DNA of 64,000 nucleotides, taken from NCBI RefSeq assembly GCF_036417845.1, contig NC_090014.1, positions 1 to 64,000 on the forward strand. Direction: 5' to 3'. Positions 3,001 to 64,000 of the stretch are shown piece after piece (within the stretch, counting starts at the first letter, position 1; every line of letters starts with the position of its first letter). Under the pieces are notes generated by a model that was not told the origin of the DNA, made no database searches, and worked only from the letters and a program-made list of their open reading frames with translations. Origin of the DNA: Apteryx mantelli (lineage: Eukaryota; Chordata; Aves; Apterygiformes; Apterygidae). The position numbers were made by a program, and so were the translations under genes.

Positions 3001-6000
3001 CCCCCCATGCGGGTCTGACCCCACGTCCCGTTCCCCCCCCCCCATGTCGTGTCCCCCCCCCCATAGGTGGGTCTGACCCCCACATTGTGTGTCCCCCCCC
3101 CCCAGGGCGGCCCCCCGGCGGCGCTGCCCCTCCCCGGCCCCCCCCATGTGGGTCTGACCCCCACGTCCCATCCCCCCCCATGTCTTCTCCCCCCCATATG
3201 CGGGTCTGACCCCCACATTGTGTCCCCCCCCATGTGGGTCTGACCCCCATGTCCCCCCCCCCACATCTTCTCCCCCCCCATGCGGGTCTGACCCCACGTC
3301 GTGTCCCCCCCCCCATGTCGTGTCCCCCCCCATACGTGGGTCTGACCCCCACGTCCCGTTCCCCCCCCCCATGTCGTGTCCCCCCCCCCATAGGTGGGTC
3401 TGACCCCCACATTGTGTGTCCCCCCCCCCCCCCAGGGCGGCCCCCCGGCGGCGCTGCCCCCCCCATACGTGGGTCTGACCCCCATGTCCCCCCCCCCAGG
3501 GCGGCCCCCCCGGCGGCGCTGCCCCCCCCGCCCCCCCGGCGGCCTTCGACGCCTGGGCTCTGGCCGTGAAGCCCCGACCGGACCCGGCGCTGCTGCGGGC
3601 CCACGTGGAGAAGATGGTGGAGGTGGGGGGCGGTGTGGGGCTGGGGGGGGGTGGGGGGGATGTGGGGGGCTGGGGGGGGACGGGGGTGTGGGGGCGGTGT
3701 GGGGCTGGGGGGGGTGGGGGGGATGTGGGGGGCTGGGGGGGGACGGGGCTGTGGGGGCGATGTGGGGCTGGGGGGGGTGGGGGGCAGGTGTGGGGCTGGG
3801 GGGGGACGGGGGTGTGGGGCGGCTCCGGGGCAGCTATGGGCCCGTGGGGTGGCTGTGGGGCAGCTGCAGGGGGCACAGTGGGGGTGGCGCCGTGGGGCGG
3901 TGGTGACGCTGTGGGGTGACGCCGTGGGGCGATGGGACAGCACTGTGGGGCAGTCGGTGGCGCCATGGGGTGGTGCCATGGGGCGGTGGCAGTGCCGTGG
4001 GGTGACGGTGATGCCGTGGGGCAGTCGGTGACGCTGTGGGGTGGTGGTGATGCTGTGGGGTGACGCCGTGGGGTGATGGTGATGCTGTGGGGCAGTCGGT
4101 GATGCTGTGGGGTGGCGCTGTGGGGCAGTGGCGGGGCTGTGGGGCAGTGCCATGGGGTGACGGTGATGCCATAGGGCAGTCGGTGATGCCGTGGGGTGAT
4201 GGTGACGCCGTGGGGTGGCGCCGTAGGGTGATGGTGGTGCCATGGGGCAGTCAGTGACACTGTGGGGTGATGCCATGGGGTGGTGGCGGCGCCGTGGGGT
4301 GATGGTGACGCCGTGGGGCAGTGGCGGCGCCGTGGGGCAGCGCCATGGGGCGGTGGTGGCACCGTGGGGCAGTCGGTGATGCTGTGGGGTTGGTGGTGAC
4401 ACCGTGGGGTGGTGCCATGGGGTGACGGTGGCGCCGTGGGGCAGTTGGTAATGCTGTGGGGTGACGCTGTGGGGTGGTGGCGGTGCCGTGGGGTGATGCT
4501 GTGGGGTGACGGTGGCTCTGTGGGGCAGTCAGTGATGCCATGGGGTGATGCTGTGGGGTGGTGGCGGCGCCGTGGGGCAGTCGGTGACGCCGTGGGGTGA
4601 CGGTGGCGCTGTGGGGCGGCGCCGTGGGGCAGTCGGTGACGCCGTGGGGCGGTGGCGGCGCCGTGGGGTGACGGTGGCGCTGTGGGGCGGCGCCGTGGGG
4701 CAGTCGGTTTTCCGGGCGTTCGACGTGGACGGCGACGGGCGAATCTCGCGCGCCGAGTTCGAGTCCGTGCGCGACAACTTCCCCTACCTGCGCGCCTTCG
4801 CCGAGCTCGACGCCGACCGGTGAGGGACCCCCCGGGGCCCCCCCGGACCCCCAACACCCCCCCGGACCCCCAACACCCCCCCCCGGGACCCCCCCGGGGC
4901 CCCCAACACCCCCCCCGGGACCCCCCGGACCCCCTGGGACCCCCCCGGGACCCCCCCGGACCCCCAACACCCCCCCCGGGACCCCCCCGGGGCCCCCCGG
5001 GACCCCCAACCCCTCCTGGGACCCCCCCGGACCCCCTGGGACCACCTGGGACCCCCAACACCCCCCCGGACCCCCAGGGACCCCCCCCCTTCTGGGACCC
5101 CCAGGGACCCCCAGGGACCCCCAACACCCCCCCCGGGACCCCCAACCCCTCCTGGGACCCCCCCGGACCCCCTGGGACCCCCCACCCCTTCTGGGACCCC
5201 CAGGGACCCCCAACACTCCCCCGGGGCCCCCCCGGGACCCCCAACCCCTCCTGGGACCCCCCCGGACCCCCAACACCCCCCCCGGGACCCCCCCGGACCC
5301 CCCCCGGGACCCCCAACCCCTCCTGGGACCCCCCCGGACCCCCTGGGACCCCCTGGGACCCCCAACACCCCCCGGGACCCCCAGAACCCCAGGGACCCCC
5401 CCGGGACCCTCTGGACCCCTCTGGACCCCCCCGGACCCCCCCGGGACCCCCAACCCCTCCTGGGACCCCCCCGGACCCCCTGGGACCCCCTGGGACCCCC
5501 AACACCCCCCCGGACCCCCAGGGACCCCCAACCCCTCCTGGAACCCCCAACACCCCCAGACCCCCAAGGACCCCCAGACCCCCCGGACCCCAACCCCTCC
5601 TGGGACCCCCAACCTTCCTGGGACCCCCCACCCCTCCTGGGACCCCCCCAGAACCCCCCCAGACCTCCCGGGACCCCCTGAACCTCCAGGGACCCCCCGG
5701 ACCCCCCAGACCCCCTGGGACCCCCAACACCCCCGGACCCCCAAGGACCCCCTGAACCTCCAGTGACCCCCCGGGATCCCCTGGGATCCCCGGGACCCCC
5801 CCCCGAACCCCTTGTGACCCCCCCCGGACCCCCCGGGACCCCCAGGGACCCCCTGAACCCCCGTGACCCCCCCCCAGGACCCCCAGAGACCCCCTGAACC
5901 CCCCAAGAACCCCCAGGGACCTCCAACCCCACCTAGGACCCCCAAGGACCCCCAATTCTCCCATCCCCAGGGGCCCAGGCGTCTGGTGCCCCCCCCCCCC

Positions 6001-12000: not shown

Positions 12001-12039
12001 GGTCATGGGGGCTGGGGGGGCCTCATCCTGCCCCATTGC

Positions 12040-13960: not shown

Positions 13961-14019
13961 AGGACAGGGGGGACCCCGGCGCCAACCGGGCCCCGACAGG
14001 GGAAACTGAGGCACCGCAG

Positions 14020-15260
14020 CGTCCGGGGGGGGGCCCAGGCGTCCGGGGGGGGGCCCAGGCGTCCGGGGGGGCCCAGGCGTCCGGGGGGGGCCCAGGCGTC
14101 CGGGGCCCGCCCTGCTGCTGGGCGCTGGCTCCTGGGGGTGCTCGTTAGCAGAGGACTAACGAGGTTTGGGACCTGATTGGCTTTAATTAGCGCCCCCCCC
14201 CCCCACACCCATGTGCCTGGCCCAGCCATAGGGCGCCCGGACGCCTGGGCCCCCGGGGGGGGGTGGGGGGGCACCCGGACGCCTGGGTCCTCCACCCTGC
14301 CCCCCCCCCCTTCTCCTCCCGGTGACCTTCAGGCGCCCTGGGGAGATGGGGAGGGCCCAGGCGTCCGGGTGCCCCCCCACCCCACCCCAGGGGGCCCAGG
14401 CGTCCGGGTGCCCCCAGGAGCGATGGCTGGGGGGGGGGGGGGGACGGGGGGGCAAACCCGGACGCCTGGGCCCCCGGGGAGCGTTGTGGGGGGGGGGAGG
14501 GGGGGCACCCGGACGCCTGGGCCCCCGGGGAGGGGGAGGGGCGGGTCGGTCCCTCTCGGCCATGACGGCAGCTTTCATTAACCGCCGCCGCCGCTGCTGC
14601 CGGGTGGGCGAAAGGCTCCGCGCGCCCCCCCCTCCCCCCCCCCCCCAGGGGGCCCAGGCGTCCGGGAGCCCTGAGACACCCCGCAGCCCCCTCCCCCCCC
14701 CCCAGGGGGCCCAGGCGTCCGGGGGCCCCTGCACCCCCCCCCCCCCACGCACCCAGGGGCCCAGGCGTCCGGGTCCCCTCCTCCCACCCAGGGGCCCAGG
14801 CGTCCGGGCCCCCCCCCCACCCGCAGGTGGGAATCGATAGTTAATTAACTCCGAGTCGGAAAAGGGGGGACAGCGGGGGAAGGGCGCGACCAGGACGCCT
14901 GGGCCCCTCCTGGCCGGGGAGGGGGGGGGGGGAAGAGCTTGGGGACCCGGACGCCTGGGCCCCTTGGGTGGGGGGGGTAGATCTCTCCTCGGACGCCTGG
15001 GCCCCTTGTGGTGCTGGAGCCCCCCGGACGCCTGGGCCCCAAGATTGGAGGGGGTAGATTCCCCCCCCCCCCGGACGCCTGGGCCCCCCCGGGTGTTGGA
15101 GCCCCCCCCCGGACGCCTGGGCCCCTTGGGGGGGGGGGTAGATCCCTCCTCGGACGCCTGGGCCCCAAGATTGGAGGGGGTAGATTCCCCCCCCCTGGAC
15201 GCCTGGGCCCCCCCGGGTGTTGGAGCCCCCCCCGGACGCCTGGGCCCCTTGGGGGAGGGG
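14020..15260. repeat. Dispersed-motif cluster upstream of NRXN2, with AT-rich islands
   Basis: Forward copies at 14032-14105, 14366-14410 and 14650-14815. Reverse copies at 14237-14290, 14457-14525 and 14890-15245. Between them lie a third stem-loop (14141-14163: CTCGTTAG and CTAACGAG arms), TTTAATTAG (14182) and TTAATTAA (14842), unusual AT-rich homeodomain-like words in this GC-rich setting. Confidence 0.8.
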
Positions 15261-15309
15261 AGGGGGGGTCGGTGCTGTCAATCCCGCTCCCCCCTGCAGG
15301 TGCAGCAGT

Positions 15310-45700: not shown

Positions 45701-48700
45701 GGAGTTCCACAGCATCGAGACGGGCATGGTGACGGAGCGGCGCTTCCTGGCCGTGGTGCCCTCCAACTTCCTGGGCCACCTCAGCGGGCTGCTCTTCAAC
45801 GGGCTGCCCTACCTGGACCTCTGCAAGAACGGCGACATCAGCTCCTGCGAGCTCAACGCCCGCTTCGGCCGCCGCGCCATCGTCGCCGACCCCGTGGCCT
45901 TCCGCGGCCGCGGCTCCTACGTGGCCCTGGCCACGCTGCAGGCCTACGCCTCCATGCACCTCTTCTTCCAGTTCAAGACCACCGCCCCCGACGGCCTCAT
46001 CCTCTTCAACGGCGGCAACGGCAACGACTTCCTCGTCGTGGAGCTCGTCAAGGGGTGAGCGGGGCCGCGGGCGCCTCGGGGACGGGTCTAGGGACCTCGG
46101 GGACCTCAAGGATGCGTCGAGGACCTCAAAGACCTTGGAGATGGGTTGAGGACCACAGGGACCTCGGGGATGGGCTGGGGACCACAGGGACCACAGGGAT
46201 GGGTTGAGGACCACGGGGACCTCGGGGATGGGTTGAGGACCACAAGGACCTTGGGGACGGGCTGGGGACCACGGGGACCTTGGGGACAGGCTGGGGACCT
46301 CAGGGACCACAGGGATGGGTTGGGGACCACGGGGACCTCAGGGATGGGTTGAGGACCACAAGGACCTTGGGGACGGGCTGGGGACCACAGGGACCTCGGG
46401 GATGGGCTGGGGACATCAGGGACCTCAGGGATGGGTTGAGGACCCTGGGGACCTTGGGGATGGCCTGGGGACCACAAGGACCTCGGGGATGGGTTGAGGA
46501 CCTCAAAGACCTTGGAGATGGGTTGAGAACCACAGGGACCTCGGGGACGGGCTGGGGACCTTAGGGACCTCAGGGATGGGTTGAGGACCTTGGGGACGGG
46601 CTGGGGACCACGGGGACCTCAGGGACGGGTTGAGGACCACGGGGACCTCGGGGATGGGTTGAGGACTTTGGGGACCTCGGGGATGGGTTGAGGACCACGG
46701 GGACCTCGGGGATGGGTTGGGGACCTCAGGGATGGGTTGAGGACTTTGGGGACCTCGGGGATGGGTTGGGGACCACGGGGACCTCAGGGATGGGTTGAGG
46801 ACCACGGGGACCTCAGGGATGGGTTGAGGACCTCGGGGACCTCGGGTATGGATTGGGGACCTTGGGGACCTTGGGGATAGGCTGGGGACCATGAGGACCT
46901 CGGGGATGGGTTGGGGACCTTGGGGACCGCGGGGATGGCCTGGGGACCGCGGGGACCTTGGTGATGAGTTGAGGACCTCAGGGACCTCAGGGACAGGCTG
47001 GGGACCATGGGGACCTTGGGGACCTCGGGGACCTTGGGGATGGCCCAGGACCACGGGGACCTCAGGGATGGGCTGGGGACCTCGGGGATGACCTGGGACC
47101 CCAGGGACGTCCTACTCCTCCTGGGGACCTCTGGGATGGCCTGGGACCTCGGGGACGACCTGACCTTAACTGGGACCTTGGGGACATCCTGGGGACCTCT
47201 GGGATGTCCTACCCCCCCCCCCGGGACCTTGGGGACGTCCAGCCCCCCTGGGGGCCTCTTCTCCAGCCTTAGGCCCCGCCCCTTTGCACCAGGCCCCTCC
47301 CCCTGGCACGGACCCCACCCCTTTGCACCAGGCCCCGCCCCTGCAGAGCGGGCCCTGGCCCCTGCTGTGGACCCCGCCCCCCTGGCAGCCTCTGCCCCAC
47401 CCCTGCGCTTTAGGCCCCGCCCTGCCCATTGTTAGCCACGCCCCCAGCAGGAGAGGCCCCGCCCCTTCAGGCTGGGCTTTGCTCCCTGCAGCCCCAGCCC
47501 CGCCCCCCCCAGGCCAAGCCCTGCCCCTGCAGGCTGGCTCCACCCCCTCAGCATAGCCCCACCCCCATCCTAGCCCCACCCCCAGCAGTGGCCCCTCCCC
47601 CCCAGGTATTGACCTAGGCAATGGCCCCTGGGCTAGCCCTGCCCCCATTCCAAGCCCTGCCCCCATTCCAAGCCCCTCCCCTTGACCATTCCCCACCCCC
47701 TTGGCCAGGACCCGCCCCCTTGACCAGGCCCCACCCCCGCAGGTACATCCACTACATGTTCGATTGGGCGATGGGCCCTGGGCTAACCCCAGGCCCCGCC
47801 CCCTGGGACAGGCCCCGCCCCCCACCCCCGCAGGTACATCCACTATGTGTTCGACCTGGGCAATGGGCCCTGGGCTAACCCTAAGCCCCACCCCCATTCC
47901 AAACCCCTCCCCTTGACCAGGCCCCACCCCCTGGGTCAGGCCCCACCCCCTAACAGGCCCCGCCCCTGCAGGTGCATCCACTATGTGTTCAACCTGGGCG
48001 ATGGGCCCTGGGCTAGCCCCGCCCCCTTGGCGAGGCCCCGCCCCCTTGGCGAGGCCCCGCCCCCTTGGCGAGGCCCCGCCCCCGCAGGTACATCCACTAT
48101 GTGTTCGACCTGGGTGACGGGCCCTGGGCTAACCCCAAGCCCCTCCCCCTTGGCCAGGACCCACCCCCTTGGGCAGGCCCCGCCCCCTGGTCCAGGCCCC
48201 CGCCCCCTGACGAGGCCCCCGCCCCCCCGCAGGTACATCCACTACGTGTTCGACCTGGGCGACGGGCCGTCGCTCATGAAGGGCAACTCGGAGCAGCCGC
48301 TGCACGACGGGCGCTGGCACGAGGTGGCCGTGGCCCGCGAGGGCGGCAGCCTGCACGGGCTGCGCGTGGACGGGCGCCCCCGTCACCCCAGCACGGCCAG
48401 GGCGCCCGCAACCTCGACCTCAAGGGTGCGCCCCGCGCCCGGGGGGGGAGCCCCCCATGGCGGGGAACCCACGGGGTGCACGCGTGGCGGGGGGGTGCAT
48501 GCATGGGGGGGAGCCCCACGGGGTGCATGCATGGGGGAGCACCCCTGGGGGAACCCATGGGGCACGCGCGTGCATGGGGGGGGGCATGTGCATGGGGGGG
48601 AGCCCACGGGGTGCATGCATGGGGGGGGAGCCCCACGGGGCACGCACGTGCATGGAGGGGGGCGTGCATGGGGGGGGAGCCCACAGGGTGCATGCATGGG

Positions 48701-51700
48701 GGAGCACCCCTGGGGGGAACCCACGGGGCGCAACGCGTGCATGGGGGGGGCATGTGCATGGGGGGGGAGCCCACGGGGTGCATGCACGGGGGGTGCATGC
48801 ATGGGGCAGGCAAACGGGCATCCCATGATGGGGGAACCCATGGGGGGGAGCCCATGGGGTGCATGCATGGGGGGGGGTGCATGCATGGGGGGCAGGCATG
48901 GGGCAGGCAAACAGAGGTGCCCATGATGGGGGGACCCTGTAGGGTGCATGCATGGGGGGGGGAGCTCCTGGGGTGCATGCATGGGGGGGGGCACCCATAG
49001 GGTGGAGCCTATAGGGTGCATGCATGGGGGGGGGGAGCCCCTAGGGTGCATGCATGGGGGGGGGGGCGGCGTGCATTGGGCAGGCAAACAGGGGCGCCCA
49101 CGATGGGGGAGCCCATGGGGTGCTTGCATGGGGGGGGGGGCACCTATAGGGTGGAGCCTATAGGGTGCATGCATGGGGTATGTATGCGGGGGGCACCCAC
49201 GATGGGGGGAAGCCGTGGGGTGCAGGCTTGGGGGGGGGCACCCAATGTGGGTGCGAGTTTAGAGGGTGCATGCATGGGGGGGGGCACCTATAGGGGGGAG
49301 CCTATAGGGTGCATGCATGGTGGGGGGGGCGTGCACGGGGCAGGCAAACAGGGGTGCAGGCTTGGGGGGGTGCCACGGGGGGGGGCACCGATGTGGGGGG
49401 ACCCATAAAGGGGAACCCATGGGGGGGGCACCTATGGGGGGGCATGCAAGTGGGGAGCACCCATATGGGGGATCCATGGGGGAGGGACCCATAGGGTGGC
49501 ATGCATGGGGGGGGCACCTATGGGGGGAGCACCTGGGGGGGGGGTTTGTGCAGGGGTGGGTGTGCATTGGGGTGCACCCGGGGGGGGGGTCCTGCATGGG
49601 GGGGGGGGGCCCCAATGGGGGGTGCACCCGGGGGGGGGGTTGTGCATTGGGGTGCACCGAGGTGGGGTTGTGCACGGGTGAGTGTTCGTGGGGGGGGGGC
49701 CCACGGGGGTTGTGCATGGGTGGGGGGGGGTGCAGGGGGCCCCCGGGGGGGGTCGTGCAGGGTGGGCGTGCAATGGGGGGGCACCCAGGGGGGTCGTGCA
49801 TGGGGGGGGTCCCAACTGGGGTGCACCCCAGGGGGGTTGTGCATGGGTGGGTGTTCACGGGGGGGGGCACCCAGCAGGGTTGTGCATGGGGGGTCCCCAA
49901 TTGGGGTGCACCCAGAAGGGTTGTGCATGGGTGGGTGCTTATGGGGGGGGCACCCAGGGGGGTCATGCATGGGGGGGTCCCCAATTGGGGTGCACCCAGG
50001 GTGGGTGTGCATGGGTGGGTGATCATGGGGGGGCACCCAGGGGGGTCGTGCATGGAGGGTCCCCAATTGGGGTGCACCCAGGGGGGTCGTGCATGGGTGG
50101 GCGCTCATGGGGGGCACCCAGGAGGGTTGTGCATGGGGGGTCCCCAATTGGGGGTGCACCCAGGAGGGTCGTGCACGGGTGGGTGTTCACGGGGGGGGGC
50201 CCTGGGGGGGGGGGTCTCGCGCGGCGGGCGGCGGGGACGGTGACGGTGACGGCGGCGCCGGGGGTCCCGCAGGGGAGCTCTACATCGGCGGCGCGAGCCG
50301 GGCGCTGCTGGGGCGGCTGCCCAAGCTGGTGGCGTCGCGCGGCGGCTTCCAGGGCTGCTTGGCCTCCGTGGACCTCAACGGGCGCCTGCCCGACCTGCTG
50401 GCGGACGCCCTGCACCGCGTGGGCCACGTCGAGCGCGGCTGCGACGGTGAGCGCGCAGCGGGGGGGGGGCGCGGGGGGGCCTGCAGGGTGCACGGGTGCA
50501 TGGGGTGTGCAAGGTGCACGGGGGCCACGTCGAGCGCGGCTCTGCGACGGTGAGCGGGGGGCACGGGGTGCACGGGGTGCACGGGTGCATGGGGTGTGCA
50601 AGGTGCACGGGGGGCCACGTCGAGCGCGGCTGCGACGGTGAGCGGGGGGGCGCGGGGGTGCACGGGGTGCACGGGTGCATGGGGTGTGCAAGGTGCACGG
50701 GGGCCACGTCGAGCGCGGCTGCGACGGTGAGCGGGGGGGCGCGGGGTGCACGGGGTGCATGGGTGCATGGGGTGTGCAAGGTGCACGGGGGCCACGTCGA
50801 GCGCGGCTGCGACGGTGAGCGCGGGACGCACATGGGGTGTGCGAGGGGGGGCGCGGGGTGCGCAGGACACATGCAGTGCGCAGGGCGCGTGGGGTGTGCA
50901 GGGCTGTGCACGGGGGGGCCCCAGGGCCGTGCAAGGTGCAGGGGGTGTGCAGGGGGCACAGCGCGCGTGGCGCGCGTAGGGGGAGCAGGGCACCGCGCGA
51001 CGCACGGGGCACGCGGGGCAGGTGGGGGGCACGGGGGGCACACGGTGCTTGGGGCGTGCGAGGTGCACGGGCTGTGCAGGGTGCGCACGGGGCTGCACGA
51101 GGGCGCACGGGGGGCACATGGGGGGTGCGCGGGGCTGCACGAGGGCGCACGGCGGGGGAAGCAGGGATGCACAGGGGCAGAGGGGCACGTGGAGGCTCCC
51201 AGAGAGGGGGTGGGGGGGTGCACAGGTGGCACACGAGGGTGCACGGGGGGCGCAGGAGGGTGCACAGGAGCGTGCACAGGTTCGCAGGGGTGCACAAGGG
51301 TGCACAGGAAGGGTCCGAGGGCGCCCGAGGGTGCACAAAGGCACACGCGGGTGCACGAGGGTGCACGAGGGCACACGAGGGTGCGTGACCGCAACGCGGG
51401 GGACGCGGGGACACGGGGGGGGGGGGCGCCCGGGTCACCCCTCCGCGCCGGCGCCCGCAGGCCCCAGCACCACGTGCACCGAGGAGTCGTGCGCCAACCA
51501 GGGCGTCTGCCTGCAGCAGTGGGACGGCTACACGTGCGACTGCACCATGACGGCGTACGGGGGCCCCGTCTGCAACGACCGTGAGTGCCGCCGCGGGTGG
51601 CCCGGGCCCTCGCACGGGGCGCGCGCGTGTGTGTCCCCCTGGCCCTCGCACGGGCGCGCGTGTGTCCCCATGGACCTCGCACGGGCACGCGTGTGTCCCC

Positions 51701-54700: not shown

Positions 54701-57700
54701 CTTTTCGGGGAGATTCGGGGCGATTCGGGGTCTCGCCTCCGGCGCCGGCTGCCGAGGGGGGGGGTTGGGCTCCCCCCCCCTCCCCGCCCCAGCCCGGTTT
54801 TGGGGGGATTTTTGGGGGCACCCGGGGCTCTCTTGGGGGGGGGGAAGGTCCGGACCCCCCCGGGCTCTTTTGGGGGGATTTAGGGGACCCCCCCGGCCCC
54901 GTTTTAGGGGGATTTTAGCCCCCCCCGGCCCCATTTTGGGGCGATTTGGGGCCCCATTTTGGGAGGATTTTGGTGTCCCTCCCCCCCCAGCCCCATTTTG
55001 GGGGATTTTTGAGCACCGCAGGGCCCCATTTTGGGGGGATTTCGGGGGATTTCGGGGCCTCCTCCAGCCCCATTTTGGGGGGGGATTTCGAGCACCACAG
55101 GCCTCATTTTGGGGGGATTTGGGGGGATTTTGGGCCCCCCTCAGCCCCATTTGGGGGGATTTTTGAGCACCGCGGGCCCCATCTGGGGGATTTGGGGGGA
55201 TTTGTGGCCCCCCCAGACCTATTTTGGGGGTATTTGGGCCCATTTTGGGGGTGATTCGGGCCTCCCCCACCCCCCTTTTTGGTGCCCCCCACCCGGTTTT
55301 GGGTGCCGCCAGCCCCANNNNNNNNNNNNNNNNNNNNNNNNNNNNNNNNNNNNNNNNNNNNNNNNNNNNNNNNNNNNNNNNNNNNNNNNNNNNNNNNNNN
55401 NNNNNNNNNNNNNNNNNNNNNNNNNNNNNNNNNNNNNNNNNNNNNNNNNNNNNNNNNNNNNNNNNNNNNNNNNNNNNNNNNNNNNNNNNNNNNNNNNNNN
55501 NNNNNNNNNNNNNNNNNTCTTTTTGGGGTGCCGCAGCCCCGGTTTTCGGGTGCTCTGAGCTCATTTTGGGCGACGTCCCCCTGACCCCATTCCTGGGCCC
55601 CCCCCCGGCCCCTTTTTTGGGTGCCCTGAGCCGTTTTTGGTGCTCTCAGCCCCTTTTTGGGCCCCCCCCAGCCCGTTTCCGGGCCCCCCCAGCCCAGTTT
55701 TTGGGTGCCCCGAGCCCCTTTTTGCCCCCCCTTGAGCCCGTTTCTGGGCCCCCCCAGCCCATTTTTTGCTCCCCCCAAGCCTCTTTTTTGGCCCCCCCAG
55801 CCCATTTTTGCCCCCCCCAGCCCATTTTTGGACCCCCCAGCCTGTTTTTGGCCCCCCGAGCCTGTTTCTGGGCCCCCCCCAGCCCCTTTTTGGCCCCCCC
55901 CCAGCCCCGTTTCCGGGCTCCCGGAGGCCGTTTTTTCCTCCTTTTTTTTGAGGGGGGGGTCTTTTTTTTCCCCTTTTTTTTTGGGGGGGGGGTCGGGACA
56001 CCCACGCGGCTCCCACCCCGGGGCGCACGGGGGGGGGGGGGCGGGGGCGGCGCTGAGGCGGGGGGGGGGCCCCCCGCTCCCATGGGGGCCCGGGGCCGCT
56101 GAGGGGGGCGCATGGGGGGCCCCGGGGCGCTGGGGCTGGCGCTGCTGGCGCTGGGGGTGCTGGCGGCCCCGGGGCGCCCGGCGCGCGTCTCCTCCAGCCT
56201 CTCCACCACCCACCACGTCCACCACTTCCACAGCCGCCACGGCACCGTGCCCATCGCCATCAACCGCACGCCCTTCCTCACCCGCGGCGCCCACGGTGAG
56301 TCCCCCCCCCCCCCCGGCCTTCGGCCTCCTCTTCCTCGCGGGGAGACCCCCCGGCCCGGCCCGGCCTTCCTCCTCCTCCTCCTCCTCCTCCTCGCGGGGG
56401 ACCCCCAGACCTGGCCTTCCTCCTCCTCTTCCTCGTGGGGACCCCCCCAGACCCGGCCTTCATCCTCCTCTTCCTCATGGGGACCCCCCCAGACCTGGCC
56501 TTCCTCCCCCTGTTCCTCACAGGGACCCCCAGACCTGGCCTTCCTCCTCCTCTTCCTCATGGGGACCCCCCCAGACCTGGCCTTCCTCCTCCTCTTCCTC
56601 ATGGGGACCCCCCCAGACCTGGCCTTCCTCCTCCTCTTCCTCATGGGGACCCCCCCAGACCTGGCCTTCCTCCTCCTCTTCCTCATGGGGACACCCCCAG
56701 ACCTGGCCTTCCTCCTCTCTTCCTCATGGGGACCCCCCCAGACCTGGCCTTCCTCCTCCTCTTCCTCATGGGGACACCCCCAGACCTGGCCTTCCTCCTC
56801 CTCTTCCTCATGGGGACCCCCCCAGACCTGGCCTTCCTCCTCCTCTTCCTTGCGGGGACCCCAGACCTGGCTTCATCCTCCTCTTCTTCCTCGTGGGGAG
56901 ACCCCCAGACCCGGCCTTCCTCCTCCTCCTCCTCTTCCTCGCGGGGACACCCCCAGACCCTGCCATCATCATCATCCTTGCGGGGAGCCCCAGGTCCGGC
57001 CTTCCTCCTCCTCCTCTTCCTCACCGGGACCCCCAGACCCAGCCTTCCTCCTCCTCTTCTTCCTCCTGGGGACACCCCCAGACCTGGCCTTCCTCCTCCT
57101 CTTCCTCACAGGGACCCCCCCCAGACTTGGCCTTCCTCCTCCTCTTCCTCACCAGGACCCCCAGACCTGGCCTTCATCCTCCTCTTCCTCGTGGGGACAC
57201 CCCCAGACCCAGCCTTCCTCCTCCTCTTCCTCGCAGGGACCCCCCCAGACCTGGCCTTCCTCCTCCTCTTCCTTGCGGGGACCCCCAGACCCTGCCATCA
57301 TCATCATCCTCGCAGGGAGACCCAGGTCTGGCCTTCCTCCTCCTCCTCTTCCTTGCGGGGAGCCCCAGACCTGGCCTTCCTCTTCCTCCTCTTCCTCATG
57401 GGGACCCCCAGACCTGGCCTTCATCCTCCTCTTCCTCACCGGGACCCCCAGACCCTGCCATCATCATCATCCTCGGGGGGACCCCCCCCAGACCCAGCCT
57501 TCCTCCTCCTCTTCCTTGTGGGGACCCCCAGACCTGGCCTTCATCCTCATGGGGACACCCAGACCCTGCCATCATCATCATCCTCATGGAGACCCCCAGG
57601 TCCTGCCCTCATCCTCATCGTCCTCACGGGGACCCCCCCAGACCCGGCCTTCCTCCTCCTCCTCCTCCTCTTCCTCGTGGGGACCCCCCCAGACCTGGTC

Positions 57701-58719: not shown

Positions 58720-58753
<34 letters not shown>

Positions 58754-61700: not shown

Positions 61701-64000
61701 ACACCTGGGCCCCTCCCGGGTGCTGGGGTTCCCGCACATCCCGGACACCTGGGCCCCTCCCAGATGGGGTCCTTCACGTCCCGGACACCTGGGCCCCTCC
61801 CGGGTGCTGGGGTTCCCACACATCCCGGACACCTGGGCCCCTCCCCGATGGGGTCCCGCGTGTCCCGGACGCCAGGGCCCCTTCTGGGTGCCGAGGGGGG
61901 GTCCCGCGCTGCCCGGACGCCGGGGCCCCCCCCTGAGAGCCGTCTCCCCGCAGCGGGCACCACGTACATCTTCGGCAAGGGGGGGGCGCTCATCACCTAC
62001 ACGTGGCCCCCCAACGACCGGCCGAGCACCCGCGCCGACCGCCTGGCGCTGGGCTTCAGCACGCAGCAGCGCGACGCCGTGCTCGTGCGCGTGGAGAGCG
62101 CCTCCGGCCTCGGCGACTTCCTGCAGCTGCACATCGTAAGCGCCCGCCCGGACGCCTGGGCCCCTTGCGGGGGGGACGGGGGGTGCCCCGGACACCTGGG
62201 CCCCTTGGGGAAGGGAGGAGGGGGGTGCCCCGGACACCTGGGCCCCTTGGGGAAGGGAGGAGGGGGGGTGCCCTGGACACCTGGGCCCCTGGAGGAGGGT
62301 GGGGGTGGCAGGGGTGGCCCCGGACACCTGGGCCCACCGGGAAGGATGTGGGGTGGAGAAGGGGGTGACTGGGTCCCCTGGGGGGGAGGGGGGTGGCCCC
62401 GGACACCTGGGTCCCCTGGGGGGGAGGGGGGTGGATTGGGAGCCTCCGGACACCTGGATCCCCTGGGAAAGGTGGTGAGGTGCCTGGACGCCTGGGTCCT
62501 CTGTGGGGCGCCCGGACGCCTGGGCCCCCCTGGGAAGGGTGTGGGGCGGATTGGGGGGGGGTGGTGCCCGGATGCCTGGGTCCCTGGCAGGTGATGTAGG
62601 GGGGGGATTGGGAGCCCCCGGACGCCTGGGTCCCCTGGGAGGGTATGGGGTGCCCGGATGCCTGGGTGCTCTGTGGGGCACCCGGACACCTGGGCCCCTG
62701 GGAAGGGTGTGGGGCGCCCGGACGCCTGGGTCCCCCCCGTCCCCCCCGGGGGCCGGCGCAGCTGAGCCGGTGATTCAGCTGCTTCCGCCCCCCCCCCCCC
62801 CCCGTCAGCACCAGCCTCCGGCTCCAGCCGCCCCCGGACGCCTGGGCCCCTGGAGCGGGGGTGCCCGGACACCTGGGTCCCTGCGAGAAGTGGGGGGGGG
62901 TGGCAGGGCCCACCCGGACGCCTGGGCCCCCCCCTCCCCCCCCCGGTGTGTGGGACGCATCCGCCAAAGCGGCTCTGCCACCACCCACCCTCCCCCTCCC
63001 GCCCGGATTAATTTTGGTGCCGCGACGGGGGGGGGGGGGGGGGGGGGTCGTTATTTCGGTCGCGATTAATGCGATTCTCCCTGGGAAACGTCGCTCTGGT
63101 GCGGCAGGGGGAGGGGGGGGGTCCCCGTGGGGAGAGGGCCCAGGCGTCCGGGAGCCCCCGCTCCGCCCCATGACCCCCAGGGACCCCGGCGTCCGGGTGA
63201 TGCTGGTGCCTGGGGGCCCAGGCGTCCGGGGCGGGGGCCCAGGCGTCCGGGGGGGGGGGTGTTCCGCACGGCTGACGCTGGCCCGCAGGCGCAGGGGGCC
63301 GTGGGGAAGGGGCCCAGGCGTCCGGGGGGGGGTGGTGTTCCGCACGGCTGACGCTGGCCCCGCAGGCGCAGGGGGCCGTGGGGGGGGGCCCAGGCGTCCG
63401 GGGGGGGGGGGGGCGTTTTCGGCACGGCTGACGCTGGCCCCGCAGGCGCAGGGGGCCGTGGGGGGGGGCCCAGGCGTCCGGGGGGGGGGGCGTTTTCGGC
63501 GCGGCTGACGCTGGCCCCGCAGGCGCAGGGGGCCGTGGGGAAGGGGCCCAGGCGTCCGGGGGGGGGGGGGCGTTTTCGGCGCGGCTGACGCTGGCCCCGC
63601 AGGCGCAGGGGGCCGTGGGGGGGGGGCCCAGGCGTCCGGGGGGGGGGGGGGCGTTTTCGGCACGGCTGACGCTGGCCCCGCAGGCGCAGGGGGCCGTGGG
63701 GGGGGGGCCCAGGCGTCCGGGGGGGGGGGGTGTTCCGCACGGCTGACGCTGGCCCCGCAGGCGCAGGGGGCCGTGGGGGGGGGGCCCAGGCGTCCGGGGG
63801 GGGCCCAGGGCGTCCGGGGGGGGGGGGTGTTCCGCACGGCTGACGCTGGCCCCGCAGGCGCAGGGGGCCGTGGGGGGGGGCCCAGGCGTCCGGGGGGGGG
63901 GGCGTTTTCGGCGCGGCTGACGCTGGGCCCCGCAGGCGCAGGGGGCCGTGGGGGGGGGCCCAGGCGTCCGGGGGGGGGGGGGGGCGTTTTCGGCGCGGCT
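17954..64000 (+). CDS. NRXN2: NRXN2 (neurexin-2 alpha), signal peptide to LG6 start; 3' end beyond window
   Basis: Neurexins are presynaptic single-pass receptors that bind neuroligins, LRRTMs, cerebellins and dystroglycan. Seventeen exons are placed: 17954-18716, 22500-22517, 25287-25316, 26674-26739, 27903-28204, 29446-29490, 33336-33497, 35475-35916, 37221-37604, 38302-38505, 40746-40772, 43893-44012, 45673-46054, 48233-48425, 50273-50446, 51461-51580 and 61954-62135. The order is LG1-EGF1-LG2-LG3-EGF2-LG4-LG5-EGF3-LG6 (start), the canonical alpha layout. Phases agree throughout except in 48233-48425 (two extra C). Arg/Ala-rich substitutions distinguish it from NRXN1 and NRXN3, and adjacency to RASGRP2 supports NRXN2. 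The rest of LG6, stalk, transmembrane segment and PDZ ligand lie downstream. Confidence 0.96.
18717..20870 (+). repeat. Intronic VNTRs, GGGTCCTTGCAC-type and TTGCACGTTGCAATG-type
   Basis: 18730-19540 repeats GGGTCCTTGCACCAACACGG-like units. 19540-20870 is built of CTTTGCACGTTGCAATG and a longer block starting AGCTGCGATGTGGCTGCGCT (19530, 19709, 19958, 20229). Degeneracy rises toward 20870. No exon is seen. Confidence 0.85.
20870..20990. repeat. Two dispersed-motif copies and a CA tract
   Basis: Reverse motif copies at about 20897 and 20914, then C-rich sequence and a short ACACACACACAC run near 20970. No coding signal. Confidence 0.7.
20990..21240 (+). promoter_or_regulatory. RFX/X-box-like motif cluster in NRXN2 intron
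   Basis: About 250 bp of non-tandem sequence holds many GTTGCC/GGCAAC words. GTTGCCATGGAGAC (21108-21121) fits the classical X-box bound by RFX factors, with TGGCAACC at 21092 and further GTTGCC at 21023, 21049, 21068 and 21151. A regulatory role is inferred from motif density. Confidence 0.5.
21240..22180 (+). repeat. Intronic VNTR, GTGCAAACCCC-type
   Basis: Units such as GGGCGTGCAAACCCCCTGGG with GTGCTATGGGG, and later GCAAACCTTGCTGGGTCGTG, about 35-50 bp each. 22180-22440 becomes CCCCCCCTTGCACGTT repeats and plain GC-rich sequence. Confidence 0.85.
22500..22517 (+). CDS. NRXN2: NRXN2-alpha SS1 microexon 1
   Basis: Eighteen bases between CCCCGCAG and GTGAGC, phase 1 at both ends, encoding EELPVE after EGF1. 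It aligns with the human NRXN2 segment EEHPMEG at alternative splice site 1. Flanking splice signals are good, and skipping preserves frame. Confidence 0.82.
22518..23320 (+). repeat. Intronic VNTR, CTCGTGCAAAGCTC-type
   Basis: Repeats of GGGACTCGTGCAAAGCTCAG and GGGGTTTCGTGCAAAGGTC, changing after about 23090 to GTGCGACGCTCGGGGGCTCG. No exon is seen. Confidence 0.85.
23320..24115 (+). repeat. Intronic VNTR, GTGCGAGCCGGGTCCGTG-type
   Basis: About a dozen units of roughly 40-60 bp built from GTGTGCGAGCCGGGTCCGTG plus GAGGACGTGCACATGC, TG-rich on the + strand. Confidence 0.85.
24120..24350 (+). promoter_or_regulatory. Octamer/CCAAT/CRE-like cluster in NRXN2 intron
   Basis: Non-repetitive block with TGACATCA (24168-24175), CCAAT (24187-24191), ATGCAAAT octamers (24203-24210 and 24291-24298), GC box GGGCGGGGC (24281-24289) and CCAAT (24315-24319). 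It resembles a POU/NF-Y/Sp enhancer or promoter. Function is inferred. Confidence 0.5.
24351..24860 (+). repeat. GC-box-bearing VNTR and GTGCGAGGCCCC repeat
   Basis: 24360-24560 has five units containing GGGGCGGGGCTTGCA, so Sp1-type GC boxes are repeated. 24640-24850 repeats CTCGTGCGAGGCCCCGTGC. Confidence 0.8.
24861..25286 (+). repeat. Pyrimidine-rich tract leading to the microexon acceptor
   Basis: After CGTC repeats (24965-25010) and an AT-rich patch (25035-25065), 25105-25285 is an almost uninterrupted C/T tract with TTTTTTGC repeats. It is an unusually long polypyrimidine tract ending at AAG before the SS1 microexon. Confidence 0.8.
25287..25316 (+). CDS. NRXN2: NRXN2-alpha SS1 microexon 2
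   Basis: Thirty bases, phase 1 at both ends, encoding [10 protein letters not shown], matching the human NRXN2 SS1 insert GPAHLTLNSEG. The acceptor is AAG after the long pyrimidine tract; the donor is GTATGA. Skipping preserves frame, as expected for a cassette. Confidence 0.92.
25440..26640 (+). repeat. Intronic VNTR with perfect 55-bp core array
   Basis: CTTGCACGGAGACCC occurs at 25576, 25631, 25686, 25741 and 25796, an exact 55-bp period with essentially identical units. Beyond 25860 the units (TTGCACGGGGACCCGAGGGA) become irregular to about 26620. Confidence 0.92.
26674..26739 (+). CDS. NRXN2: NRXN2-alpha putative SS1 exon 3
   Basis: Sixty-six bases between CCGCCCAG and GTCAGT, phase 1 at both ends, encoding [20 protein letters not shown] then AK. 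Position, phase symmetry and open frame fit an SS1 cassette exon, but the Gly/Ala-rich peptide is poorly conserved, so this is less certain than the other microexons. Confidence 0.6.
26740..27900 (+). repeat. Intronic VNTR, GCACACGTGTGCTGTGCACG-type
   Basis: One motif pair in opposite orientations (26748 and 26798), then 26940-27300 with ~57-60-bp units containing GTGTGCACACGTGTGC and GGTGCACGTCCGCCCCTGCA, and 27330-27800 with GCACGCAGGTGCACATCC. These words are self-complementary and may form cruciforms or Z-DNA. Confidence 0.85.
27903..28204 (+). CDS. NRXN2: NRXN2-alpha exon: first part of LG2
   Basis: Encodes [20 protein letters not shown] through [20 protein letters not shown] and [17 protein letters not shown]. 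It is nearly identical to the mammalian LG2 (the neurexophilin and dystroglycan-binding region). Entry phase 1, exit phase 0, donor GTAGGG. Confidence 0.97.
28205..29100 (+). repeat. Dispersed-motif array with 38-bp period
   Basis: One forward copy (28247), then about 25 reverse copies. From about 28620 to 29080 the reverse motif forms an almost regular 38-bp array with the spacer TTCCCCATGGGGCTGATGTT. This is the most ordered motif cluster in the window. Confidence 0.9.
29100..29445 (+). other. Homopolymer-rich intron segment
   Basis: G runs (29116-29170), C runs and CCCCCACTAAC repeats (29310-29360). CTAACGAGGTTTCTAC at 29183 resembles the flank of the stem-loop at 14156. No exon before 29446. 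Confidence 0.6.
29446..29490 (+). CDS. NRXN2: NRXN2-alpha SS2 exon with internal alternative donor
   Basis: Forty-five bases between GCCCGGCAG and GTAGAT encode [15 protein letters not shown], the complete SS2 insert of mammalian NRXN2. ATG/GTAAAC at 29467-29475 is an internal donor that would give the known short form HAGIGHAM (24 bases). Both lengths and full skipping keep frame, so three SS2 isoforms are possible. Confidence 0.95.
29491..29719 (+). other. Intron segment, GC-rich, no feature
   Basis: C-rich and CpG-rich sequence after the SS2 exon. No recognisable repeat array or exon. Confidence 0.5.
29720..30175 (+). repeat. Polypyrimidine microsatellite, TTTTCTTTCCCCCC-type
   Basis: About 450 bp of pure or nearly pure T/C, with a regular 14-bp unit (CCCCCCTTTTCTTT) at 29860-29980 and CATTTTCTGTCATTTTTCC units at 30015-30120. 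Mirror-symmetric pyrimidine tracts can form triplex (H-DNA). Confidence 0.9.
30180..30495 (+). other. CpG-dense intron segment
   Basis: C runs, CCTCGCACGTGG repeats (30312-30365) and a CTCCTCCTC triplet run (30405-30445). No exon is recognised. Confidence 0.5.
30496..32115 (+). repeat. Intronic TG-rich VNTRs, ~89-bp units then GTGTGCATATGCA-type
   Basis: 30590-31170: CAAGGTCACGGCTCTG recurs near 30598, 30687, 30857 and 30947 (about 89-bp spacing, one unit variant at 30776). 31500-32115: GTGTGCATATGCATGTGTGT-type alternating repeats. Confidence 0.87.
32116..32635 (+). other. Degenerate repeats and two motif copies
   Basis: GTCCCGTCCCGTGCCGTGCC (32200-32235), CTCGCACGCCCC words, a non-repetitive stretch (32340-32430), then two reverse motif copies (32512, 32540) and a G run. 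No exon is seen. Confidence 0.6.
32636..33180 (+). repeat. Intronic ~36-bp VNTR, CTTGCACAAGTC-type
   Basis: About fifteen units combining CCTCGCACGAGGCC with GGTGCATCTTTGCACAAGCC. The words CGCACGAG and TTGCACAA are imperfect palindromes. Confidence 0.85.
33336..33497 (+). CDS. NRXN2: NRXN2-alpha exon: central LG2
   Basis: Fifty-four codons: [40 protein letters not shown] and [14 protein letters not shown]. One difference (V for I) from human is apparent. Phase 0 at both ends, acceptor GTGCCGCAG, donor GTGAGC. Confidence 0.98.
33498..34250 (+). repeat. Intronic VNTR, GTGCAACGGTGCATGG-type
   Basis: Repeats of GGGGTGCAATGGTGCATGGG with ACATGGGGTGCAACAGTGC. Longer blocks around 33830-33900 and 33950-34020 are near-identical (~120 bp apart). 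Confidence 0.87.
34251..35440 (+). repeat. Higher-order repeat of 20-bp GCGTGTGCATGCTGTGCATT monomers
   Basis: 20-bp monomers of alternating purine-pyrimidine are organised into larger units ending GCCGTGCACGGCCCC. That boundary occurs near 34591, 34691, 34771, 34871, 34971, 35051, 35151 and 35251, i.e. units of 100, 80, 100, 100, 80, 100 and 100 bp. Confidence 0.92.
35475..35916 (+). CDS. NRXN2: NRXN2-alpha exon: end of LG2 and start of LG3
   Basis: Encodes [74 protein letters not shown] and [16 protein letters not shown] Pro/Arg-rich loop ([15 protein letters not shown]) replaces the Gly/Ser-rich loop of mammals. Entry phase 0, exit phase 1, donor GTGCGC. Confidence 0.97.
35917..36410 (+). 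repeat. Intronic VNTR resembling the preceding exon-donor junction
   Basis: Units combine GTGTGCGTGCACGGAGGGGT with TGCACGGGGTGCAAAGGGTG. The word GGGTGCAAAGGGTGCGCGTG (near 36171) resembles the true junction GGGCGCAAAG/GTGCGCGTGC at 35907-35926. Confidence 0.8.
36411..37150 (+). repeat. Intronic VNTR, CCCTGCACATCCCTGTGCA-type
   Basis: Short CACATCCCTG words combine into larger near-identical blocks of ~100-120 bp containing CCATAGACCCTATGCACC (36990, 37087) or CCTATACACCCTATGC. Confidence 0.87.
37221..37604 (+). CDS. NRXN2: NRXN2-alpha exon: end of LG3 and EGF2
   Basis: Begins [20 protein letters not shown], continues [35 protein letters not shown], then EGF2 with six cysteines ([20 protein letters not shown] then [15 protein letters not shown]). 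Phase 1 at entry and exit, donor GTGGGC, directly followed by a variant of the dispersed motif. Confidence 0.97.
37605..38301 (+). repeat. Dispersed-motif cluster including stem-loop element, copy 2
   Basis: Reverse motif copies at 37608-37960 and 38088-38280 flank 37966-38166, a near-identical copy of 9242-9440 (constant offset 28,724). The stem-loop is at 38028-38054. One copy is thus in an NRXN2 intron and the other between the genes. Confidence 0.9.
38302..38505 (+). CDS. NRXN2: NRXN2-alpha exon: start of LG4
   Basis: [60 protein letters not shown], matching LG4 of mammalian neurexins. Phase 1 at both ends, acceptor GGCCCCGCAG, donor GTGAGC. Confidence 0.97.
38506..39470 (+). repeat. Intronic VNTRs, GTGCAACGCGGGTGCACG- and GGGATCC-type
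   Basis: 38560-38690 has GTGCAACGCGGGTGCACG units. 38860-39270 is a ~20-bp repeat of TGGGATCAGGGATCCCCCC. 39270-39470 is GC-rich single-copy-like sequence without a recognisable exon. Confidence 0.8.
39471..40590 (+). repeat. Intronic 93-bp VNTR, GTGCACGGCGCTGCACG-type
   Basis: AGCCCTGATC recurs at 39521, 39614, 39987 (as CTGACC), 40080, 40173 and 40266, with exact 93-bp spacing within each run. Monomers are ~31 bp (CCCCGTGCACGGCGCTGCAC). 93 is a multiple of three, so long artefactual frames result. Confidence 0.92.
40746..40772 (+). CDS. NRXN2: NRXN2-alpha SS3 microexon
   Basis: Twenty-seven bases, phase 1 at both ends, encoding DCVRIGCLP, with Ser formed across the next junction. It corresponds to the SS3 insert (human DCLRVGCAPS). 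The acceptor TCTCTTCTCTCCCCAG is strong and the donor is GTAAGT, the best consensus donor in the gene. Skipping preserves frame. Confidence 0.94.
40773..41375 (+). repeat. Intronic CATC/CGTC tetranucleotide-derived VNTR
   Basis: CCATCCATCCGTCCCTCTGT-type repeats. A block from about 40800 recurs around 41000 (TCCATCCCGACGTCCCTCCA at 40870 and 41053), a ~180-bp duplication. Confidence 0.9.
41376..42200 (+). repeat. Intronic repeats, GGGACACGCGTGTGCA-type, and motif copies
   Basis: Reverse motif at 41383, then 41460-41700 units of GGGACACGCGTGTGCAGGGA, a forward motif at 41957, and GC-rich degenerate sequence with ACACGCGTGTGC words. No exon is seen. Confidence 0.8.
42200..43870 (+). repeat. 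Intronic 57-bp VNTR, GTGTGCATGCAGGGTGTTGC-type
   Basis: Early part: 56-60-bp units with GGCTGCAGCCGTGTGCGTGG. From 43030 the word GTGTTGCAGCC recurs at exactly 57-bp spacing (43030, 43087, 43144, 43201, 43258, 43315), then truncated units. 43680-43860 is GCGTGGCGTGTGCGTGGCGT. Many units contain TGTCGCAGGC, acceptor-like on +. Confidence 0.9.
43893..44012 (+). CDS. NRXN2: NRXN2-alpha exon: central LG4
   Basis: Encodes [20 protein letters not shown] then [20 protein letters not shown], including the conserved DDNEWH turn. Phase 1 at both ends. The donor GTGCCG is weak, but the junction with GQM in the next exon is exact. Confidence 0.97.
44013..45620 (+). repeat. Intronic VNTRs, GGGACACGGGTGCA- and GGGGTGCAGATGCGGGTGCA-type
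   Basis: 44040-44490: blocks of GGATGCACATGGGATGGGGG with GGGACATGGGGACATGGC. 44510-45600: ~20-bp units GGGGTGCAGATGCAGGTTCA with interspersed GTGCAATGCAGGGTTGCGGG. Confidence 0.88.
45673..46054 (+). CDS. NRXN2: NRXN2-alpha exon: end of LG4 and start of LG5
   Basis: [100 protein letters not shown] and VVELVKG. Highly conserved. Entry phase 1, exit phase 2, donor GTGAGC. Confidence 0.98.
46055..47170 (+). repeat. Intronic ~29-bp [24 protein letters not shown]-type
   Basis: About 35 units of ~29 bp (GGGGACCTCGGGGATGGGTT plus GAGGACCAC) with few other words. No exon is seen. Confidence 0.92.
47171..47600 (+). repeat. Intronic C-rich repeats (CCCCGCCCCTTTGCACC-type)
   Basis: GGCCCCGCCCCTTTGCACCA and CCCCACCCCC words rich in inverted GC boxes, grading into the partial-exon copies that begin near 47600. 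Confidence 0.8.
47600..48232 (+). repeat. Tandem partial copies of the next NRXN2 exon start
   Basis: Acceptor plus the first ~36 bases of exon 48233-48425 are copied at 47743, 47834, 47972 and 48088, with a decayed copy at 47606. Translations are [36 protein letters not shown] and [12 protein letters not shown]. After GGGCC each copy reads TGGGCTA and returns to C-rich repeat, whereas the true exon reads GTCGCTCATG. Confidence 0.93.
48233..48425 (+). CDS. NRXN2: NRXN2-alpha exon: central LG5, frame broken by two extra bases
   Basis: Starts (completing Gly) [20 protein letters not shown], then [20 protein letters not shown] and HGLRVDGR. The expected continuation ending [14 protein letters not shown] is present but two bases out of frame. 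Length is 193; the family needs 191. The surplus bases sit in C runs 48377-48381 and 48386-48389. Read literally, the frame reaches TGA at 51548-51550 in EGF3. Either homopolymer error or a lesion. Confidence 0.9.
48426..50270 (+). repeat. Intronic G-rich VNTRs, GGGGTGCATGCATGGGGG- and GGGTTGTGCATGGGTGG-type
   Basis: 48470-49330: GGTGCATGCATGGGGGGGGA with AGCCCACGG. 49330-49550: GGGGGCACCTATGGGG. 49550-50200: GGGGTGCACCCAGGGGGGTC with GTGCATGGGTGGGTG. Many G4-compatible runs on the + strand. No exon is seen. Confidence 0.88.
50273..50446 (+). CDS. NRXN2: NRXN2-alpha exon: end of LG5
   Basis: [40 protein letters not shown] and [19 protein letters not shown]. The ASRALLGR loop differs from human SKNMFSN; the rest is near-identical. 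Intended entry and exit phase 1, donor GTGAGC. Confidence 0.97.
50447..50830 (+). repeat. Four downstream copies of the exon end plus donor
   Basis: GGCCACGTCGAGCGCGGCTG followed by CGACG/GTGAGC, the last bases of exon 50273-50446 with its donor (GGCC at 50422), recurs at 50523, 50613, 50702 and 50790, separated by GTGCACGGGTGCATGGGGTG spacers (period 88-101). The first copy has a 2-base TC insertion. Confidence 0.93.
50831..51460 (+). repeat. Degenerate GTGCACGGGGGGCAC-type repeats
   Basis: GTGCAGGGGGCACAG, GGGTGCACGAGGGCACACG and related words continue from the preceding array with increasing decay up to the acceptor at 51460. Confidence 0.75.
51461..51580 (+). CDS. NRXN2: NRXN2-alpha exon: EGF3
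   Basis: [40 protein letters not shown]: a complete EGF repeat with six cysteines, nearly identical to human. Phase 1 at both ends, donor GTGAGT. It joins 61954 to form Pro (C + CG). Confidence 0.98.
51581..52380 (+). repeat. Intronic VNTR, GTGTCCCCATGTCCCTTGCA-type
   Basis: About 27-30-bp units: CACGCGTGTGTCCCCATGGC with CCTCGCACGGG. Similar in wording to the unrelated array in the first full RASGRP2 intron (274-1666). Confidence 0.87.
52381..52500. repeat. Two dispersed-motif copies
   Basis: Forward GGCCCAGGCGTCCGGG at about 52418 and 52466 in CACACACACCCCCC sequence. Confidence 0.8.
52501..53600 (+). repeat. Intronic VNTR, GGATGTGGGTCCGGCTGTGG-type
   Basis: ~20-bp words (GCCGTGGGGCCGGATGTGGG, GGTCTGGCTGGTGCCATGGG) combine into longer duplicated blocks. 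Open in several frames on both strands; no conserved protein is visible. Confidence 0.88.
53601..54600 (+). repeat. Pyrimidine-rich repeats, CTCCTC and CATCCCTCCATCC types
   Basis: 53600-53720 is CTCCTCCTCCTCC with CCTCCCTCCCTCCC. 53880-54600 is CATCCTCCATCCCTCCATCC, tetranucleotide-derived. Confidence 0.88.
54601..55317 (+). repeat. CCCCATTTTGGGGGGATTT repeat up to the gap
   Basis: From about 54780, ~35-40-bp units with CCCCATTTTGGGGGGATTTT and GAGCACCGC. The array runs directly into the run of N. Confidence 0.85.
55318..55517. other. Assembly gap, 200 N
   Basis: Exactly 200 unknown bases with the same class of repeat on both sides. The round number suggests a placeholder of unknown true length. 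It lies about 600 bp upstream of the beta start codon. Confidence 0.98.
55518..56111 (+). promoter_or_regulatory. NRXN2: NRXN2-beta promoter and 5' leader region
   Basis: 55540-55930 has GGGCCCCCCCAGCCCATTTT repeats, then two T-rich tracts and a CpG-rich leader. No TATA box is evident. A seven-codon upstream frame (ATG 56082, TGA 56100-56102) ends ten bases before the beta ATG. Promoter activity is inferred from position ahead of the beta exon. Confidence 0.5.
56112..56295 (+). CDS. NRXN2: NRXN2-beta specific first exon
   Basis: ATG 56112 opens [20 protein letters not shown] (signal peptide), then [20 protein letters not shown] and [17 protein letters not shown], the hallmark beta-neurexin histidine-rich segment (human [20 protein letters not shown]). 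Ends phase 1 before GTGAGT and joins 61954 to give [13 protein letters not shown], as in human beta. The signal is shorter than human NRXN2-beta. Its hydrophobic core ([15 protein letters not shown]) closely resembles that of the alpha exon here ([15 protein letters not shown]). Confidence 0.96.
56296..58840 (+). repeat. Intronic 42-bp VNTR, CCAGACCTGGCCTTCCTCCT-type
   Basis: 56400-57300 is a fairly regular 42-bp array (CAGACCTGGCCTTCCTCCTC plus TTCCTCATGGGGACCCCC). To 58700 the units vary in length. Pyrimidine-rich on +. 42 being divisible by three explains long open frames. Confidence 0.92.
58841..60240 (+). repeat. Intronic VNTR, GTGCACCAGCCCCCGTGCA-type
   Basis: Words GTGCACCAGCCCCCGT, GCATTGCACCAGCCCC and CACGGCCCCGTCCTCGTGCA combine for 1.4 kb. 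No exon is seen. Confidence 0.9.
60241..61140 (+). repeat. GTGCTGGATTTGGGG repeat, TG-rich repeat and G27 run
   Basis: 60310-60550: TTTGTGCTGGATTTGGGG-type. 60610-60980: CACACGTGTGTCAGGGGCGT and GCATGCACACGCGTGT. 61083-61109 is an uninterrupted run of 27 G. Confidence 0.85.
61141..61940 (+). repeat. Dispersed-motif array in NRXN2 intron
   Basis: About 20 reverse copies, many as the CpG-decayed form CCGGACACCTGGGCCCC, with spacer CTCCCAGATGGGGTCC and period ~35-40 bp. It ends just before the acceptor of the LG6 exon. Confidence 0.9.
61954..62135 (+). CDS. NRXN2: NRXN2 exon: start of LG6 (alpha and beta)
   Basis: Completes Pro (alpha) or Ala (beta), then [40 protein letters not shown] and [20 protein letters not shown]. 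This is the domain that binds neuroligin and LRRTM. Entry phase 1, exit phase 0, acceptor TCTCCCCGCAG, donor GTAAGC. SS4 lies further downstream. Confidence 0.98.
62136..62950 (+). repeat. Dispersed-motif array
   Basis: Reverse motif copies from 62148 to 62720 and at about 62833, 62867 and 62915, separated by GGGGAAGGGAGGAGGGG-type spacers. 62950-63130 is C/G homopolymer-rich intron with no exon. Confidence 0.88.
63130..64000 (+). repeat. Nine tandem copies of an acceptor plus exon-start module
   Basis: Each ~77-81-bp unit (one 97) holds CGGCTGACGCTGGCCCCGCA, G, then GCGCAGGGGGCCGTGGGG, then a forward dispersed motif and a G run. Acceptor AG precedes 63289, 63366, 63446, 63523, 63603, 63684, 63761, 63858 and 63936. 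The post-acceptor bases translate AQGAVG, matching DQGTVG that starts the next LG6 exon. None continues into the conserved VIFNVG, so the real exon lies beyond 64000. Confidence 0.93.

Follow-up and report, generated by a model that had tools for sequence, protein, structure and literature searches.

The window analysed here, the whole stretch of 64,000 nucleotides, carries on its plus strand the 3′ part of RASGRP2 followed by a large part of NRXN2, a neighbourhood which we take to be known synteny. Gene models comprising 23 exons were built, with AG at every acceptor and GT at every donor except for two NRXN2 first exons, whose starts (17990 and 56150) are approximate and were excluded from the acceptor counts. 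This model may miss small alternatively spliced NRXN2 exons, and some introns may contain an unmodelled exon. In RASGRP2 the final exon has its acceptor at 8758; the BLAST, exact-match, matched-null and site-model counts used 8767, 9 bases off, and since the 24-mer at 8758 lacks a local duplicate, as does that at 8767, the count of 3/43 given below is unaffected.

Among solved chains, the joined translation of the RASGRP2 exons gave its top and longest match to RasGRP1 (4l9m_A, E 4.3e-86), with RasGRP2 second (6axf_A, E 1.6e-64, 158 residues) and the EF hands of RasGRP2 ranked lower (2ma2_A, E 9.1e-28); the gene is called RASGRP2 because of the RasGRP2 match together with its position beside NRXN2. 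The NRXN2 exons match neurexins, the leading match being neurexin-1-alpha, and the exon at 61954 is most similar to neurexin-2-beta (E 1.9e-35). GC content in 2-kb bins ranges from 0.59 to 0.79, and the introns are heavily covered by repeats (635 TRF rows for the window, 150 of the 635 inspected); these two properties point to an avian dot chromosome as the setting. There is a single gap of 200 bases (55318-55517), and Rfam searches at the gathering threshold and tRNA searches over the window each returned no matches.

Between the two genes, at 15243-15519, lies a unique and less GC-rich tract (0.64) containing TATAAATA and ATTTGCAT, motifs that suggest a promoter or regulatory element. An open frame of 1389 codons (15488-19654) passes through a minisatellite and joins NRXN2 alpha exon 1 without a change of frame; the minisatellite repeats mainly at multiples of 18 nt, and the absence of stops may be due to periods that are divisible by 3. 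Within the same exon, 18032-18051 resembles 56130-56149 at the start of the beta first exon (20 nt, 95%, 32.2 bits). Both lie in leucine-rich, signal-peptide-like stretches, and the similarity could be due to chance.

Table 1. Features considered in the window, with strand and the evidence for each; exons and junctions are named in the text by coordinate
Feature	Position	Strand	Evidence
RASGRP2 intron holding captured acceptor copies from exon 3500	2639..3499	+	BLAST, exact matches, direct reading
RASGRP2 exon, source of captured acceptor edge	3500..3622	+	boundaries and RasGRP homology
RASGRP2 intron occupied by CCGTGGGG-type array	3623..4703	+	exact matches; local duplication 0.85
RASGRP2 EF-hand exon	4704..4819	+	boundaries and RasGRP homology
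NRXN2 intron with four acceptor-capture copies and a decayed remnant	46055..48232	+	BLAST, direct reading, site score
NRXN2 exon, source of acceptor copies	48233..48425	+	neurexin homology, boundaries
NRXN2 exon, source of captured donor edge	50273..50446	+	neurexin homology, boundaries
NRXN2 intron with four donor-capture copies	50447..51460	+	BLAST, direct reading, site score
Terminal array of nine acceptor copies, whose source is probably the following NRXN2 exon	63270..64000	+	direct reading, neurexin alignment, site score

Copies of exon edges in adjacent introns

The 23 modelled exons were compared by blastn-short with the introns and intergenic stretches, after the screen used for exon stuttering (PMC12954441), which calls for a match of at least 20 nt and at least 42.1 bits in a proximal intron. 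Thirteen proximal matches of at least 20 nt were obtained, of which ten reach 30 bits, and all ten fall within the three introns adjoining exon 3500 (two), exon 48233 (four) and the exon end at 50446 (four). Nine of these ten exceed the maximum of 38.2 bits seen in 20 mono-shuffled and 20 first-order Markov control runs, and eight reach the published 42.1 bits (2/2, 3/4 and 3/4, respectively). The 18 distal matches, the best at 32.2 bits, are inside the shuffled range. Match thresholds, and the 14-mer filter used below, were our own choices. The match at 47743 (34.2 bits) is itself within the shuffled range, and is counted as a copy because it is in register with its neighbours and shares their joint. 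Three of the four matches of exon 48233 extend to its base 1, and three of the four at 50446 extend to the last exon base; BLAST matches of exon 3500 begin at exon base 7, and exact matches do span its border. Four junctions inside the window have exact copies that span them; all of these copies lie within 5 kb and none is far away.

It is clear that tandem copies of an exon edge together with its splice site are present at three places in RASGRP2 and NRXN2. Before exon 48233 the copied exon starts are at 47743, 47834, 47972 and 48088, each with about 35 exon bases, and the remnant of a fifth, decayed copy lies near 47602. The donor copies after 50446 have exon ends at 50549, 50637, 50726 and 50814, spaced by 88-101 nt, and each consists of the last 26 exon bases followed by GTGAGC. 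Exon 3500 has two upstream copies of its acceptor, in which the exon part begins at 3106 and at 3436 and runs for about 30 bases; they diverge immediately after the common exon part, within a C-rich stretch, and therefore one or two captures are possible there.

The original prediction had placed such arrays at five junctions, and the remaining two fare less well. In the terminal array the unit GCAG/GCGCAGGGGGCCGTGGGG (the slash marking the exon border) occurs nine times, with exon starts at 63289, 63366, 63446, 63523, 63603, 63684, 63761, 63858 and 63936, and its source exon would lie beyond the window end. The copied start reads in phase as AQGAVG and lengthens the neurexin-2-beta alignment of the preceding exon (..LHIDQGTVG), so that derivation from the next NRXN2 exon, past 64000, is probable; that exon would be expected to start with GCGCAGGGGGCC. 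The case for exon 4704 is weak. The preceding intron holds six exact copies of GCAG/TCGGT which extend over 9-45 intron bases but only five exon bases (TCGGT), too few for exon capture, and exon 4704 has no proximal blastn-short match of at least 30 bits; it was rejected as a strong junction capture.

In two arrays the copies share a joint. In all four donor copies at 50446 it is GTGCACGGGGG(G)/CCACG, and in the four full copies of 48233 it is GGGCC/CTGGGCTA (the slash here marking the joint), while the nine terminal units are alike beyond the copied exon start. Because the joints are shared among copies, this suggests one capture per array followed by amplification, rather than repeated copying of the exon. 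Looked for as a possible sign of slippage, G or C runs of at least 3 lie near two of three breakpoints, against a background of 0.23 (7-nt windows, in which longer runs are clipped), and on inspection the breakpoint at exon 3500 sits among C runs 7-8 bases long.

Compared over the first 35 bases of exon 48233, its four copies differ from it at 13 positions in all, comprising ten CpG transitions, two other transitions and one gap; the ten represent six distinct changes, some shared between copies, and in every CpG difference the exon carries the CpG form. This pattern suggests copying from exon to intron with little constraint on the copies thereafter. The donor copies at 50446 show no substitutions over 26 exon bases, one of them having a 2-base insertion, and are probably younger. 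Decay of CpG in the copies offers a means of ranking captures by age and of polarising the copying, from exon to intron.

The reading frame switches between the start and the end of exon 48233-48425. This is probably the result of assembly indels in C runs, although it is possibly real.

A separate observation concerns an 18-base core, CCCGGACGCCTGGG(C/T)CCC, which is dispersed over 5974-63971 in 12 clusters with sharp edges and spacings of mostly 30-60 nt. Its central 13-mer gives 145 matches with at most one mismatch, against 0.79 expected, in both orientations (97 and 48), and an exact 11-mer of the core turns up in 10 of the 24 intervals, intronic or intergenic; because of this recurrence the arrays are not wholly private to each intron. 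One core trails each of the nine junction units of the terminal array, and none was found in the four other introns of the original prediction (those of 3500, 4704, 48233 and 50446). The core might be a recognition or initiation site for arrays across a dot-type chromosome, with junction capture where it adjoins an exon, as at 63270-64000, but we regard this as unlikely, and because the core is missing from those four introns it would explain at most a subset of the captures. The core 13-mers were found in no paper of the openly licensed PMC literature (CC0, CC BY and CC BY-SA).

Predicted use of the copied splice sites

Splice sites were scored with a simple matrix trained on the sites of the window itself, which favours copies by construction and included one acceptor 9 bases off. 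The donor copies at 50446 score 11.0, equal to the real donor, with which they are identical over -3 to +6. Acceptor copies score 6.7-13.6 for exon 48233 (real site 16.3) and 7.2 and 12.6 for exon 3500 (real site 8.2), the nine terminal copies score 5.6-11.7, and those of exon 4704 range from -5.0 to 4.3 (real site 4.3). In support of the original prediction, real splice sites have been copied into introns, and some of the copies score about equal to their originals on this crude matrix.

Use of any of the four donor copies, of both exon 3500 copies or of the 48233 copies at 47743 and 48088 is predicted to shift the frame. The copies at 47834 and 47972 would give in-frame extensions without a stop; these paths are uncertain because they pass through the frame change in exon 48233-48425. 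NRXN2 is heavily alternatively spliced in mammals, and for this reason its copied splice sites would make a clean test of any effect of exon stuttering on transcripts.

Local duplication at exon borders and within introns

A 24-mer was called locally duplicated if a copy with at most 3 mismatches lay within 3 kb. By this measure 57% of intronic 24-mers (n=49,288) are duplicated, against 0.8% at a far control distance, compared with 7.2% of junction-spanning 24-mers (n=1,058) and 0.9% of exon-interior 24-mers (n=4,158). Only 3/43 24-mers centred on a junction are locally duplicated. Exact matches spanning the border occur at 4/43 junctions, a figure that includes exon 4704, as against 2190/3985 random intronic points and 82/3978 exon-interior points, and in a null matched intron by intron (2000 draws of 42 pseudo-junctions each) the mean was 24.6 and the minimum 14. 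Duplication climbs with distance into the intron, crossing one half at 48-100 nt from the border. In the three capture introns (3500, 48233 and 50446) local duplication is 0.52, 0.69 and 0.36, within a range of 0.33-0.85 for all introns. Complexity-filtered 14-mers common to adjacent introns number zero in 16 of 20 pairs and 1-23 in the other four.

These counts run against the earlier proposal of a process that begins at the edges of exons, since junctions show a depletion of duplications, and within this window junction capture is below the intronic rate. Most simply, duplication would be frequent throughout the introns and would be removed, or less tolerated, where it touches a splice site. 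Such avoidance would reflect selection on the splice sites; alternatively, the depletion is possibly a mutational shadow of the exon. Depletion of junction capture relative to intronic duplication offers a simple genome-wide gauge of how strongly splice sites are protected where introns are very repetitive.

Interpretation and comparison with known systems

With a probability of roughly 0.87, the whole is explained by exon stuttering, in which local duplication runs past an exon border, the product is amplified and the copies are unconstrained by-products. Introns of an avian dot-type chromosome would fill with mostly private tandem arrays by repeated local duplication, for which the likely engines, the DNA being G/C-rich, are slippage, template switching or unequal exchange, possibly with gene conversion, and the exons would persist through selection. 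Occasionally a duplication would overrun the exon border, taking with it some 26-36 exon bases and the splice site, and the compound unit of exon edge and intron would then amplify within the intronic array. The resulting copies would be potential decoy splice sites, decaying as unconstrained DNA and, if used, shifting the frame in most cases tested.

Were expansion instead to begin preferentially at exon edges, as the only unique sequence left, junctions would be favoured seeds. Three to four introns do have junction copies with the border inside the unit, and in PMC12954441 more than 90% of captured sources lie at most 1 base from the exon border; a border position of this kind, however, is expected from any duplication that extends from an intron into an exon, and with junctions depleted in each comparison (3/43 against 57%, 4/43 against 2190/3985, null minimum 14/42) we consider such seeding very improbable. 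The copies might also be kept because they modulate or diversify splicing of NRXN2 or RASGRP2. The identity of the four donor copies with the real donor over -3 to +6 would fit such a function, as would the stop-free in-frame extensions opened by the 48233 acceptor copies at 47834 and 47972, two of four. Against it, a frame shift is predicted for the donor copies, for 47743 and 48088 and for both copies of exon 3500, the loss of CpG from the 48233 copies argues for a lack of strong constraint, and a site model trained on real sites scores identical copies well by construction. A splice-tuning role appears very unlikely.

An assembly artefact, through a collapsed or over-expanded long-read consensus in the repeats, has in its favour the 200-base gap and the frame change in 48233-48425, which make local base errors likely, and the near-identity of the copies within the 50446 array and within the 63270 array. 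Set against this, most of the differences between the 48233 copies and the exon are CpG transitions, only one gap of 1 base occurs and the spacers are unequal in length, and PHF8 introns of the published class were checked on raw nanopore reads (PMC12954441), so that an artefact is also very unlikely. That the copies represent genuine exons, duplicated or alternative, and not decoys is the reading to which we give the least credence, as extremely improbable: they retain an acceptor or donor along with a coding start or end, but the matches span only about 20-38 of 123-193 exon bases and take in one exon end, and hence none is a complete exon.

The original prediction knew of no named class for such arrays. 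A name does exist, "exon stuttering", given by Hron et al. 2026 (PMC12954441) to arrays on chicken dot chromosomes; that paper describes 115 genes and 236 introns, 190 of the introns on dot chromosomes, and reports that 86% of dot-chromosome introns vary in length among chickens. It was the only paper using "exon stuttering" or "sequence stuttering" among the matches listed. Neither NRXN2 nor RASGRP2 appears in its main text, and a search of the literature on the two genes in birds gave nothing relevant by title. The likeness to the published class, as described in PMC12954441, is close. Here too, an exon edge and its splice site recur as local, direct tandem copies in the adjacent intron, the introns are very GC-rich and filled with repeats, and the exons are otherwise single-copy; the 42.1-bit threshold is passed in three introns with the copies confined to adjacent introns, and the source lies mostly at most 1 base from the exon border. 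To this description the present analysis adds the measure of depletion, the joints shared among copies, and the polarity and decay of CpG. The three introns belong to exon stuttering, the 63270 array probably does, and exon 4704 does not.

Other systems are less alike. A tandem repeat which likewise multiplies a donor site is known from IFI6/6-16, a single human gene, reportedly with a much shorter repeat unit; that repeat is not known to be part of a chromosome-wide process. Internal tandem duplication within a gene is said, in work of Gao and Lynch from 2009, to be able to copy splice-site sequence and so to create introns. Those duplications make new introns, whereas the copies in RASGRP2 and NRXN2 sit in existing ones.
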